Source: Acidobacteriota bacterium (lineage in GTDB: Bacteria; Acidobacteriota; Terriglobia; Acidiferrales; UBA7541). Taken from it: a DNA stretch of 32,923 nucleotides. A model generated the notes under the pieces. The model was not told where the DNA came from, did no database searches, and saw only the letters and a list, made by a program, of their open reading frames with translations. The stretch is from assembly GCA_021818865.1 (NCBI GenBank), contig JAKASX010000038.1, positions 1-32,923 of the forward strand. Direction: 5' to 3'. Below are positions 20,019 to 32,248 of the stretch, piece after piece; the stretch's first letter is position 1, and each line of letters opens with the position of its first letter. Position numbers and translations under genes: made by a program.

Positions 20019-20468
20019 CTTTATATAAACCGCCGCCTGGACCGAACTGCCTGAAGATTCTGCCGCCCCTGCCCGGCGGCCTGCAACTGCCAGAGTGTTT
20101 GAACCGAGAGCCTTGGTTCGAAACAGAGAAAGTCTAAAAATCCCGAGACACCGTGTCAAGCCAAAATTGCCCGTTCGCGATTTTTCCCGATGCCGATGCC
20201 ATCTTCCCCGAGCGATTGCGCCTTCCACTGCGACGCTTCATTCCACGTGGCGGGATGCCCCTGCCTGCTTCGGTGCCGTCGCGTATGGGTACATCCCCTG
20301 GCTACTTGACCGGCCACGCTCCTCACGCACCGCCCACACGCATCTTGCTCCTGTCGGCAATTTGAGCCAACATAACCGGCTCCTGCGGGCTCTCGGACCT
20401 CACGTCTGGACCGAAGCGACTGCAGCGCATCCACGGCGGAAATGGGAAGCATTTCCGAGGACGATCTC
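20019..20468. other. Divergent intergenic region between M23 and rhamnosidase genes
   Basis: No gene with codon or RBS support is seen in these 450 bases. It contains the M23 promoter at 20131-20159 and its leader, including a small inverted repeat (GAACC 20101-20105 / GGTTC 20115-20119). No convincing promoter for the rightward rhamnosidase gene was found, and the remaining 250 bases hold nothing I can name. Confidence 0.5.
20131..20159 (-). promoter_or_regulatory. Near-consensus sigma-70 promoter for the M23 gene
   Basis: Minus strand TTGACA (-35, 20154-20159), exactly 17 bases, then TAGACT (-10, 20131-20136). The -35 is a perfect match. The leader would be about 105 bases long. Confidence 0.75.
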
Positions 20469-23186
20469 ATGGAACCGACTCGCGCGCACTGCCTGAAATC
20501 GCATAGCATGGTCCTGCTCGTTCTTGTGCTCGTTTCGCCCGCTCTCGCGGCGCCTCGTCCGCCGCATCTCGGTCCGATCCCTCCGCAACATCTTCGTTGC
20601 GAATATCTGAAGAACCCACGGGGCATGGACGTCCTGCGTCCACGCTTCGCCTGGTGGCTTTCTTCTCCGCGACGCGGCGAGTCGGAAACCGCCTACCAGA
20701 TCCTGGTTTCCACGTCTCGCGAAGCTCTTGCGCGGAATCGCGGCGACGAGTGGGACAGCGGCAAGGTCACCTCGAGTCAGTCGACCCAAATCGTCTACGC
20801 CGGCCGGCCGCTCGAGAGCGGCATGACGTATTTCTGGAAAGTTCGGTGGTGGAACGGCGAAGGCGACGCCAGCCCTTATAGCGAGCCCGCACGCTTCGAA
20901 ATGGGGCTGCTTCACCGCGATGAATGGCATGGTGAATGGATAGGCGGCGCGAATCTGTTGCGCAAACCGTTCGCCCTCCCTGGTATGGTTCGCCGGGCGC
21001 GCGTTTACGTTGCGGCGCTCGGTTATTACCAACTCAGGCTCAACGGCAGGAGAATCGGCCACAACGTTCTCGATCCCGCCTGGACCACCTACCCCAAACG
21101 CGTCCTCTATCGCACCTACGACGTGACGCATGCCCTGCGCGACGGCCACAACGTCATCGGCGTCATGCTCGGCGGCGGCTGGGCCACGCAAACGGCCGGC
21201 GGCATTCCCGGCTATTACACCGCGCCCGCCTTGCTCCTCCAGATGAACATTACCTTGACCGATGGCCGCGAAATCGGCATTGCCAGCGACGCTTCCTGGC
21301 AGATGCATTCGGGGCCAATCCTGCGCGACAGCGTTTACAACGGAGAAATTTACGACGCACGGCTCGAGCAGCCGGGATGGGACCGCCCCGGATTCGACGC
21401 TTCGGGTTGGCAGCCTGCGCGCCGGATGGCCGGCTCGGCTGGAAAACTATCCGCCGAAATGATGCCGCCGATCCGGGTTGTGGATACGCTCGTGCCCCGC
21501 GGCATGTCGAACCCGCGGCCCGGCGTTTACGTCTACGATTTCGGGCAAAACATTTCCGGCTGGGCCCGGCTACGCGTGCGCGGTCCGCGCGGCACGCGAG
21601 TCGAGATGCGCTACGCCGAACTCGTCTATCCCGATGGCACGATCGACCGCGAAAACCTGCGCGGCGCGAAAGCGCGCGACGTCTATATCCTGAAAGGCCA
21701 AGGCCTCGAAACGTTTCAGCCCCAATTCACCTATCACGGATTCCAGTACGTCGAACTCACAGGCTATCCCGGCACGCCCGGTCTCGATACCCTCCGCGCC
21801 CGCGTCGTTCACACCGCCGTCTCTCCAGCCGGCAACTTCGTTGCGTCGAATCCCCTCCTCAACCAGATCCAGCGCCTGATTCACTGGAGCCAGGTTTCGA
21901 ACCTGATGAGCATTCCCACCGATTGCGACCAGCGCAACGAACGCCAGGGCTGGATGGGCGACGCGCAGCTCTCCGCCGAAGAAGCCATGATGAATTTCAA
22001 TATGGCGGCTTTCTACACCAATTTCATTCGCGACATCCGCGACGCCCAAAAACCCAATGGCGAAATACCCGATACCGTCCCTCATAAATACGGCAGCTAT
22101 CCCGCCGATCCTGCCTGGGGCACCGCTTACCCGCTGCTCTGCTGGTACATGTGGCAGCAATACGGCGACCGGCGCATCCTGCGTCAGAATTACGCCGCGC
22201 TCCAGAAATACGAGTCGTACCTGGAATCGCGCGCCGCGAACAACGTTCTTCGTTACAGCTACTACGGCGATTGGGTGGCGATCGCTCCGACGCCCGGCGC
22301 GCTCGTCTCCGATTTCTACTACGAATACGACACGCGCATCCTGGCCTCGATCGCCCGCGTTCTCGGCCATTCCGCCGACGCGGAAACTTACTCGCGTCTG
22401 GCCGGGGAAATTCGCACGGCCTTCAACGGCGCTTTTTTCAACCCCAAGACCGGTCAATACGCCACCGGCTCGCAAACGGCCGATGCGCTGGCGCTTTTTC
22501 TCCACCTTCCGCCCAAGGGCCGCGGCGGCCAGGTGATGGCTCATCTGACGAATGACATCCTCTACCGTCACAACACGCACCTGACCACCGGCATCATCGG
22601 CACCAAGTATCTTCTGCCGGTCCTCACCGAATACGGCCGCAACGACCTGGCCTACGAACTCGCCACCCAAACCACCTACCCGAGTTGGGGCTACATGGTT
22701 CGTCGCGGCGCCACCACCCTTTGGGAACTTTGGCAGGACAAAACCGGGCCTTCGATGAATTCCCACGATCACATCATGTTCGGCAGCATCGGTTCCTGGT
22801 TCTACACGGCGCTCGGCGGCATTCGCCTCGCTCCGGGCAGCCAGGGCTATCGCCGCATCGTGTTTCAACCGCAAATCGTTGAAAATCTCCGTTGGGTTTC
22901 GGCCACGCTCGATACCGTCCGAGGCGTCGTTTCCTGTTCCTGGAAGCACGAACCCGGACGAATCGAGATTCGCGTCGAGGTTCCGGTGAATGCGGGCGCC
23001 TCCGTCGTCGTCCCACAGGAAGAACAGATGACTCGAGTCGTGATCCGGGAAAGTGGCCGCGTGGTTTGGGAAGACGGTCATTTCGTTCCCAGCGACCCCG
23101 GGGTGCTCACGGGAAAACGCGAGGGTGATGGTTACGAATTTACCGTAGCGTCTGGCTCCTACGATTTTCAGCTCACCGGCGAATGA
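20469..23186 (+). CDS. Secreted alpha-L-rhamnosidase, GH78
   Basis: Predicted inverting glycosidase that removes terminal alpha-L-rhamnose from plant or microbial polysaccharides and glycosides. The start at 20469 has GAGGA 7 bases before it and gives 905 residues with a signal peptide (hydrophobic MVLLVLVLVSPALA, cleavage near residue 28). Domain order fits the family: N-terminal beta domains (LRCEYLKNPRGMD, FWKVRWWNGEG, LGYYQLRLNGRRIG, VYDFGQNISGWARL), the (alpha/alpha)6 catalytic barrel from about residue 450, and a C-terminal beta domain. The catalytic motif DCDQRNERQGWMGD spans Asp485-Asp498, with the likely acid Glu491; the likely base is Glu753 in ATTLWE. All are present. It stands upstream of thiL by 65 bases with no obvious functional link. 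Likely periplasmic or extracellular. Confidence 0.95.
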   Translation: MEPTRAHCLKSHSMVLLVLVLVSPALAAPRPPHLGPIPPQHLRCEYLKNPRGMDVLRPRFAWWLSSPRRGESETAYQILVSTSREALARNRGDEWDSGKVTSSQSTQIVYAGRPLESGMTYFWKVRWWNGEGDASPYSEPARFEMGLLHRDEWHGEWIGGANLLRKPFALPGMVRRARVYVAALGYYQLRLNGRRIGHNVLDPAWTTYPKRVLYRTYDVTHALRDGHNVIGVMLGGGWATQTAGGIPGYYTAPALLLQMNITLTDGREIGIASDASWQMHSGPILRDSVYNGEIYDARLEQPGWDRPGFDASGWQPARRMAGSAGKLSAEMMPPIRVVDTLVPRGMSNPRPGVYVYDFGQNISGWARLRVRGPRGTRVEMRYAELVYPDGTIDRENLRGAKARDVYILKGQGLETFQPQFTYHGFQYVELTGYPGTPGLDTLRARVVHTAVSPAGNFVASNPLLNQIQRLIHWSQVSNLMSIPTDCDQRNERQGWMGDAQLSAEEAMMNFNMAAFYTNFIRDIRDAQKPNGEIPDTVPHKYGSYPADPAWGTAYPLLCWYMWQQYGDRRILRQNYAALQKYESYLESRAANNVLRYSYYGDWVAIAPTPGALVSDFYYEYDTRILASIARVLGHSADAETYSRLAGEIRTAFNGAFFNPKTGQYATGSQTADALALFLHLPPKGRGGQVMAHLTNDILYRHNTHLTTGIIGTKYLLPVLTEYGRNDLAYELATQTTYPSWGYMVRRGATTLWELWQDKTGPSMNSHDHIMFGSIGSWFYTALGGIRLAPGSQGYRRIVFQPQIVENLRWVSATLDTVRGVVSCSWKHEPGRIEIRVEVPVNAGASVVVPQEEQMTRVVIRESGRVVWEDGHFVPSDPGVLTGKREGDGYEFTVASGSYDFQLTGE

Positions 23187-30716: not shown

Positions 30717-31472
30717 TTGCCCCCGCACATCCTACGCGCACTGGAACGGGTGACTTTCGTCGCCGGATTGGCGCTGCTGATCTTTTACGCTGTCGCGCGC
30801 CTCGATGGATACCTGGCTTCGCGCGCAGCCATCGAGCGCTTCGAAGCCGTCGCGGCACAATCCGCTTCCGAGTTCCCCGCTGAGCTTGCGAAGCCTGCGG
30901 CCGAGGCCCAATCGTCAAGGCAGCTCGCCGAACCCAGCAAGGTGAATTTTTCCGCGTGGGCCGCCTCGCGCGTGCGCGCCTATCGCCGAAGCCTCGCGCG
31001 CGACGCCGGAACCCCGATCGCGATTCTGCGCATCCCGAGACTTCATCTGGCCGCGCCCGTTTTCAATAGCACGGATGCGCTCGCGCTCAATCGCGGCGTG
31101 GGCCGGATCGCCGGCACGGCAATGCCGGGCGCGTCGGGCAATCTCGGGATCGCCGGCCATCGCGATGGCTTCTTCCGGGGTCTCAAGGACCTTTCTCCAG
31201 GCGATGCGATCGAAATCGAGGCCAGACGCGGCACGGACACTTACATCGTCAGGAAAATCCTGATCGTCAGCCCTCGCGACGTTTCCGTGCTCGCTCCGAG
31301 CCAGGCGCCCGCACTCACGCTCGTCACCTGTTATCCGTTCTACTTTATCGGCAACGCGCCGAGACGCTACGTCGTCGAAGCTTCGCTTCGCGCCGTGGCG
31401 CCCAACCCCCCAAGCGGCCAGCGACCCGCTCCAATCCGATTGGGCGCTGTCCAAGGAGAAGCAAGAAAATGA
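30717..31472 (+). CDS. Sortase (class D-like cysteine transpeptidase)
   Basis: Predicted membrane-bound transpeptidase that cleaves a sorting signal and joins the protein to an amine acceptor. The chain has 251 residues from TTG 30717. A membrane anchor lies at about residues 10-29, a Glu/Ala-rich stalk follows, then the sortase barrel from about residue 98 (PIAILRIPRLHLAAPVF). The catalytic triad is visible: His148 in GIAGHRDGFF, Cys205 in LTLVTCYPFYF, and Arg217 in APRRYVV. The TLVTC and PFYFIG pattern is that of class D-like sortases found also in diderms. Its stop codon overlaps the next gene start (ATGA), a strong sign that the next product is its substrate. Acceptor unknown. Confidence 0.92.
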   Translation: MPPHILRALERVTFVAGLALLIFYAVARLDGYLASRAAIERFEAVAAQSASEFPAELAKPAAEAQSSRQLAEPSKVNFSAWAASRVRAYRRSLARDAGTPIAILRIPRLHLAAPVFNSTDALALNRGVGRIAGTAMPGASGNLGIAGHRDGFFRGLKDLSPGDAIEIEARRGTDTYIVRKILIVSPRDVSVLAPSQAPALTLVTCYPFYFIGNAPRRYVVEASLRAVAPNPPSGQRPAPIRLGAVQGEARK

Positions 31473-32248
31473 AACGAATGTCGAAGCGTTGGACCCATCT
31501 GCTCGGGCTCTTCGCGTTTGCCGCCGCAGCCGTGTTTCTTGTCGGCAGCGCGAACGCTCAGCAGAAAACCGTTCAAGAACGGCCGGCCGGACCGCATGAG
31601 GTCCAGGTCGAGCTGATTCACAGCACGGTGGTCGCCGTGGACGGCAACCACCTCGTCGCCCGCCTGGAAAACGGCAAGCTCGAAGCCATTCTGGTTCCCG
31701 AAGACTTCCGTTTCCACGAGGATGGACAAGTGCTTTCCGTACATGAACTCCAGCCGGGTATGGTGCTCACCGAAACCATCACCACCACCGTGAAACCCGT
31801 GATTGTCCGCACCGTGGAAATCACCGAGGGCACCGTCTGGCACGCGGGCGGCAATACGCTGATCATCCGCGACCACTTCAACAAGATGCAGACGTATCAC
31901 GTCCCCGCATGGGCCACCGTCGAACTCGAAGGGGAAAGAGTGAACGTCAACCAATTGAGGCACGGACAGCACGTCACCGCGACCATCATCACCGAAGAAC
32001 CGGTCACGTATGCGGAGCGGGAGTCCAGAACGACCGTCCGCCGTCCCGCTAAGCCCCCGGTGACCGCCGCGGTGGAAAAAGCCCCGGTAAAATCCACGGT
32101 GGAAGAGCAAGCCACTGAAGAACAACCCGCCGAAGAACCGCAGCAGGAGCTGCCAAAAACGGCCAGCCCACTCCCGTTGGCCGGCGGCCTCGGCGCTCTT
32201 CTGCTCTTGGTTTCCCTCGGCTTGAAGACGGTACGCAAGTTTGCCTGA
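31469..32248 (+). CDS. LPKTA-anchored surface protein, probable sortase substrate
   Basis: Exported 259-residue protein. Signal peptide residues 1-30 (core LLGLFAFAAAAVFLVG, cleavage after SANA). Residues about 46-180 are beta-rich and form two similar units of about 65 residues (46-112 and 116-180), each starting VE and holding a GN/GGN turn then a HEL or NQL region near its end. A Pro/Glu/Lys-rich linker follows (about 185-226). The end is a classic sorting signal: LPKTA (228-232), membrane span (234-251), basic tail (KTVRKFA). The fifth motif residue is Ala instead of Gly. Its ATG overlaps the sortase stop, so both are made together. Function of the beta units is unknown. Confidence 0.88.
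   Translation: MKRMSKRWTHLLGLFAFAAAAVFLVGSANAQQKTVQERPAGPHEVQVELIHSTVVAVDGNHLVARLENGKLEAILVPEDFRFHEDGQVLSVHELQPGMVLTETITTTVKPVIVRTVEITEGTVWHAGGNTLIIRDHFNKMQTYHVPAWATVELEGERVNVNQLRHGQHVTATIITEEPVTYAERESRTTVRRPAKPPVTAAVEKAPVKSTVEEQATEEQPAEEPQQELPKTASPLPLAGGLGALLLLVSLGLKTVRKFA

Follow-up and report, generated by a model that had tools for sequence, protein, structure and literature searches.

Introduction

The enzymes known to attach proteins to peptidoglycan fall into two classes, the L,D-transpeptidases and the sortases, the latter being described for Firmicutes (PMC8263019). Dedicated sortase pairs are nevertheless known outside the Gram-positive bacteria, as a strictly Gram-negative sortase (TIGR03784, class GN) adjoins its only LPXTG target (PMC3237569). 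Class GN is the marine or proteobacterial type of sortase, and its target (TIGR03788) is a VIT/VWA protein of about 700 amino acids. Class D sortases are represented by the structures 4D70 and 2LN7 (the latter B. anthracis SrtC/SrtD) and by the NCBIfam models NF033746 and NF058671. They act on LPxTA substrates, of which each enzyme has few (in the case of B. anthracis, BasI and BasH), and B. anthracis SrtC cuts LPNTA between T and A with m-Dpm as acceptor (PMC3297441). Six sortases have been counted in Solibacter (PMC3174227), and in the literature searched, where subscription journals were thinly covered, we found no study of acidobacterial pairs or substrates outside class GN.

Here, we report on a sortase gene and an overlapping candidate substrate gene from the genome of a soil bacterium of the Acidobacteriota, located in a stretch of 32,923 nucleotides that was analysed as a whole and is referred to as the window. 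An earlier note on this DNA implied that a sortase pair in an outer-membrane organism would be novel; the pair is real and widespread but not a new principle, since dedicated Gram-negative pairs have already been described (PMC3237569). In all likelihood it is a dedicated two-gene diderm sortase system, in which a tandem OB-like protein would be cut after Thr and bound covalently to periplasmic peptidoglycan.

The gene pair and the class of the sortase

The features of the pair, all on the forward strand, are as follows.

30717..31472, +, sortase gene, class-D-like, 251 aa, TTG start (PF04203, NCBIfam SrtD, AlphaFold-model matches)
30729..30815, +, N-terminal membrane anchor of the sortase, about residues 5-33 (hydropathy >1.6; model helix 3-49)
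31158..31160, +, catalytic His148 codon (invariant in relatives)
31329..31331, +, catalytic Cys205 codon, in TLVTC (invariant in relatives)
31365..31367, +, catalytic Arg217 codon (invariant in relatives)
31453..31458, +, AAGGAG, probable ribosome-binding site of the substrate gene (read from the sequence)
31469..31472, +, ATGA overlap of sortase stop and substrate start (kept in other species)
31469..32248, +, predicted sortase substrate gene, 259 aa, body family A, no Pfam family
31469..31558, +, predicted signal peptide, residues 1-30, ...SANA|QQ (hydropathy; Q31 invariant in 27 homologues)
31607..31807, +, repeat 1 of the tandem OB-like body (hhalign against repeat 2)
31814..32017, +, repeat 2 of the tandem OB-like body (hhalign; strands in the model)
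32021..32149, +, Pro/Glu/Ala-rich linker of low model confidence (pLDDT <50 over residues 198-233)
32150..32164, +, LPKTA sorting motif, residues 228-232 (C-terminal profile E 1.2e-11)
32165..32248, +, SPLPLAGGLG... membrane span, basic tail KTVRKFA and stop (model helix 237-258; hydropathy)

The coordinates, strand, frames and ATGA overlap of the two genes proved exact. The earlier note's reading of a sortase with His148, Cys205 and Arg217 agrees with the PF04203 match and the invariant triad, and its reading of a substrate with a signal peptide and a C-terminal LPKTA, span and basic tail agrees with hydropathy and the signal profile.

PF04203 matched the sortase over the entire model (E 7.8e-29, 100.4 bits, cut-off 26.6), and the presence of the sortase beta-barrel domain is also seen in Foldseek matches of the AlphaFold model to many sortases (E down to 2e-12). 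The three catalytic residues are unchanged in 20 relatives as well as in 22 sortases from the enzyme's own clade, and the TTG start lines up in alignment with the ATG starts of two relatives. By both profile and structure the enzyme is nearest to class D, yet it falls outside every class on curated cut-offs, scoring 136.9 bits with NCBIfam SrtD (NF058671, cut-off 140) and 122.6 bits with class D (NF033746, cut-off 165); class D is the top-scoring class, and the models for classes E, C, GN and F gave 91, 82.3, 79 and 21.9 bits. A PDB profile search placed B. anthracis 2LN7 (E 2.9e-32) and C. perfringens 4D70 (E 2.9e-22) closest among solved structures, and SrtD 4d70 and B. anthracis SrtD 2ln7 were also at the top of the Foldseek search with the AlphaFold model. 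The likeness to class D extends to the LPxTA type of substrate, with LPKTA in the adjoining gene whose use as substrate is predicted, and to the small number of substrates per enzyme. The differences are the scores below both NCBIfam cut-offs, the occurrence in lipopolysaccharide (LPS) diderms and an adjoining substrate family that lacks a Pfam model.

Like class GN, the window pair is a one-enzyme/one-target arrangement in outer-membrane bacteria, but membership of this class (TIGR03784) was ruled out by a score of 79 bits against a cut-off of 158.25, and an NCBIfam search found no match to the TIGR03788 target in the window substrate. Class GN sortases were observed in two genomes of the host's own family (L042:4180-7046 and L043:6506-7264, 152 and 170 bits against the cut-off of 158), where they form a long separate branch on the sortase tree. 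In L042 a VIT/VWA target (TIGR03788, 610 bits) adjoins the enzyme, and GN systems thus also occur in Acidobacteriota.

The substrate and its sorting signal

The LPXTG-type architecture is complete in the substrate, with signal peptide, C-terminal LPxTx, membrane span and basic tail. The C-terminus reads LPKTA-SPLPLAGGLGALLLLVSLGLKTVRKFA, in which the motif is followed by a hydrophobic span (Kyte-Doolittle up to 1.92) and then by KTVRKFA, and the L, P, T and S of the signal are invariant in an alignment of 19 rows. Ala does stand in place of the fifth-position Gly, as had been pointed out earlier, but the suggestion that this is unusual was rejected, because LPNTA is cut by SrtC (PMC3297441) and because Ala and Gly interchange at this position across the body-A homologues (LPxTA or LPxTG). 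Motif, span and basic tail are common to the substrate and the LPXTG/Gram_pos_anchor family (PF00746), although this model does not match the window protein and matches only 5 of 27 homologues, weakly (best 4.9e-4).

For the body of the substrate no Pfam or NCBIfam family was matched, pilin families included. It consists of two tandem repeats of about 68 residues each, which hhalign related to one another with a probability of 99.3% (E 2e-20), compared with at most 0.9% in 20 column shuffles. The AlphaFold model is beta-rich with a mean pLDDT of 76, mostly 70-95 in the repeats. OB-type domains gave the best VIA-align matches, with Z reaching 6.1 over 54-63 residues, which may reflect a shared arrangement and nothing more; Foldseek returned nothing for the model at E <= 0.001. 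These matches are suggestive, but not proof, of an OB-like body. A Pro/Glu/Ala-rich linker of about 43 residues lies between the body and LPKTA, and a guess would be that the protein serves as a wall-tethered envelope or scaffold protein.

One enzyme and one substrate in the host genome

A single sortase was found in the host genome (3.97 Mb, 95% complete). A profile of the C-terminal signal (33 columns, from 19 sequences) detected the window protein only (E 1.2e-11; next match 0.087), the substrate body is present as a single copy, and PF00746 gave nothing over its cut-off in this genome. The bare motif is uninformative, because the LPKT[AG] 14-mer occurred 24 times in the genome and 35 times in the reversed control; none of the other 23 occurrences was followed by a membrane span and stop. 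This census could have missed a substrate whose tail differs strongly, or one encoded in the 5% of the genome that is lacking. With one sortase, one signal and one body, the one-enzyme/one-substrate unit proposed earlier is borne out for the host, where a check for further sortases or LPKTA-type C-termini yielded none beyond the window pair, and the substrate is very probably the single protein attached by this sortase.

Conservation of the pair across the Acidobacteriota

The two genes share the ATGA overlap, with AAGGAG about ten bases upstream of the substrate start, and all four other genomes of the genus show a four-base overlap too, as do G006, L086, L091, L095 and L141. Both genes are under purifying selection, as comparisons with three species of the genus gave dN/dS values of 0.28-0.32 (sortase) and 0.20-0.37 (substrate). 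The neighbouring genes for a cystathionine-beta-synthase and a methyltransferase recur in three other genomes of the genus and were not found at the other loci; sortase and substrate remain together where the neighbouring genes differ.

In a set of 41 genomes of relatives, the host's own included, a sortase was present in 20. All sortase-bearing genomes of this set had a signal at E <= 1.1e-5 except one with a GN-type enzyme, and no sortase-less genome had a signal match below 0.03. The pattern recurred in a scan of 396 sampled Acidobacteriota genomes, in which 81 had a sortase, 61 a signal and 59 both, so that such pairings occur in about 15% of the sampled genomes. A sortase accompanied 59 of the 61 signal-bearing genomes and 22 of the 335 others (Fisher p 4e-49, with shared ancestry ignored), and the two genomes with a signal only gave marginal E values of 0.001-0.003, the frames being 66 and 73 codons long. 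The signal profile had no match in 22 of the 81 sortase genomes. Sixty of 75 signals lay within 3.5 kb of a sortase, a count biased by the seeding of the profile from sortase-adjoining proteins, which does not bias the absence of signals from sortase-less genomes. The pairing of enzyme and signal in the phylum is not due to chance, and 39 of the 59 genomes had exactly one of each. On a tree of 66 sortases, the 25 that stand beside body A, the window's included, form one group (support 100/99), and adjacency to body A requires one change on this tree compared with 20.3 in shuffles.

The patchy distribution, with a sortase in 20 of the 41 relatives, could mean that the pair is left over from a Gram-positive cassette acquired by transfer and now inactive. 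Such a remnant is highly improbable in view of the dN/dS of 0.20-0.37 on both genes, the invariant catalytic triad, the retention of the pairing across many genera and a G+C of the gene pair (0.63) equal to that of the window (0.62). The same pair was found in the named strains Granulicella sp. L46, Edaphobacter modestus, Edaphobacter aggregans and strain KBS 83, which makes the acceptor question directly testable.

Copies without a signal or with an altered one

The earlier expectation that the pair is always together nearly holds, in that the two genes are conserved as a pair, but it is not strictly true, since there are extra and distant substrates and signal-less paralogues. Among 26 substrate-A loci surveyed from named genomes, 21 had the LPxT signal (LPEAG instead in L094) together with a sortase on the same stretch, and in L090 the signal is present and the sortase of its genome lies elsewhere. 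The remaining four (L084, L087, L100 and L103) end in a plain C-terminal span without the motif. The genomes of L087, L100 and L103 have the canonical signal-bearing pair at another place, and these three signal-less copies are therefore paralogues; the genome of L084 has neither signal nor sortase. The notion that a signal-less copy marks a sortase-less genome was accordingly refuted in three of four cases (both Edaphobacter genomes and CRAIB_MAG101, with the canonical pair). Wherever a surveyed substrate-A locus had an intact signal, a sortase was present in the same genome.

Other departures affect the tail or the motif itself. A second body-A gene, truncated and tail-less, lies a few hundred bases downstream of the pair in L079 (3038-3583), and two substrate-A homologues have LPEAG (L094:5896-6591) and LPGAG (L212:1495-2532, reverse strand) instead of LPxTG, the former adjoining an intact sortase. 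The existence of signal-less, tail-less and LPxAG copies implies that the body can work without wall anchoring and, like the 22 sortase genomes without a signal match, counts against the dedicated-pair reading.

Two main bodies with one signal

Body family A, the window type, has the gene order sortase-substrate, often with a four-base overlap. A second family, body B, precedes its sortase, usually with a gap that is filled by a TIGR03436 VWA gene in the locus examined. At L024:4335-6674 and other body-B loci there is a three-gene cassette of a body-B substrate with an LPxT signal, the VWA gene and the sortase. Body B had no NCBIfam match and showed no detectable relation to body A in profile comparison (probability 0.1%). 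The body-B cassettes of Acidobacteriota share the C-terminal signal (LPxT[AG]S..PLIGLLG) with the window type and have related sortases, but they differ in the unrelated body, the extra VWA gene, the opposite order and sortases that fall outside the body-A clade. Elsewhere in the phylum, the signal beside sortases was also found on further proteins that match neither body. That different bodies beside sortases carry one and the same signal is what would be predicted for an enzyme that recognises the signal rather than the body. In G032 the body-B protein adjoining the sortase lacks the signal and a distant copy has it (LPHTAGELSLIGLIG), the two loci being L029:7948-8559 and L066:1501-2337, both on the reverse strand. 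It may be, although we consider this less likely than not, that Acidobacteriota have a separate phylum-wide diderm sortase class, neither GN nor recognised class D, with one signal fitted to several unrelated periplasmic bodies.

Genome G234 had four signal-bearing proteins, on contigs C46, C54, C116 and C178, and one sortase, on C138, which is possibly a small many-to-one sortase system.

Pilin (class C) sortases join proteins to proteins, and the acceptor of the window substrate could similarly be another protein, giving a polymer or a link to another envelope protein. The two to four signal-bearing proteins of some genomes and the VWA-domain gene between substrate and sortase in related body-B loci would fit this. 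We consider a protein acceptor quite unlikely for the window pair, as only one substrate was found in the host genome, the scores of class C models are far lower than those of class D, and pilin families are unmatched in the substrate.

Envelope of the host and proposed mechanism

The relatives from named genomes belong to the Acidobacteriota (gp1, gp2, Terriglobia, Acidiferrales), with the exception of one Ignavibacteriae-labelled MAG. LptD was found in the host genome (47.5 bits against a cut-off of 22.4, E 1.9e-12) in a search that among the control genomes was positive in E. coli and Caulobacter only. The host is therefore an LPS diderm Acidobacteriote, as the earlier note had thought probable. 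The host MurE (505 bits) carries the DNPR motif, a mark of the enzyme that adds meso-diaminopimelic acid (mDAP), which suggests peptidoglycan of the mDAP type.

From these observations we infer cleavage, transpeptidation and acceptor as follows. The substrate would be exported by Sec and its signal peptide removed, and the C-terminal span and basic tail would retain it in the inner membrane, with LPKTA facing the periplasm. The class-D-like sortase, itself anchored in the membrane and translated together with the substrate, would use Cys205 to cut between Thr231 and Ala232. It would pass the acyl group of Thr to an amine on the outer side of the inner membrane, in all probability the one on the side chain of mDAP in lipid II. 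The tandem OB-like protein would thereby end up covalently on periplasmic peptidoglycan. The combination of LPKTA and an mDAP acceptor is what would naturally be expected, because the class-D-type SrtC cuts LPNTA and uses m-Dpm.

Alternatively, the sortase may cut and water or a small amine take the acyl group, so that the protein is released to the periplasm and not fixed to the wall. The signal-less and tail-less paralogues do show the body in other forms too. Release is nonetheless unlikely, given that the nearest characterised sortase is a transpeptidase onto m-Dpm (PMC3297441) and that the host MurE is of the DNPR type.

The window thus holds a dedicated sortase pair of minimal size, from an LPS diderm whose MurE is of the mDAP type. 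If Acidobacteriota do have a separate phylum-wide sortase class, sortase attachment to thin peptidoglycan would be a normal envelope feature of many of them. Such attachment would require neither Lpp-type lipoproteins nor L,D-transpeptidases, and it may serve to hold envelope layers together. The signal profile also gives a way of finding possible wall-anchored proteins in a phylum that is very common in soil. Elsewhere in the window, and unrelated to the sortase pair, an alpha-L-rhamnosidase with all Pfam rhamnosidase domains is encoded at 20442-23186.
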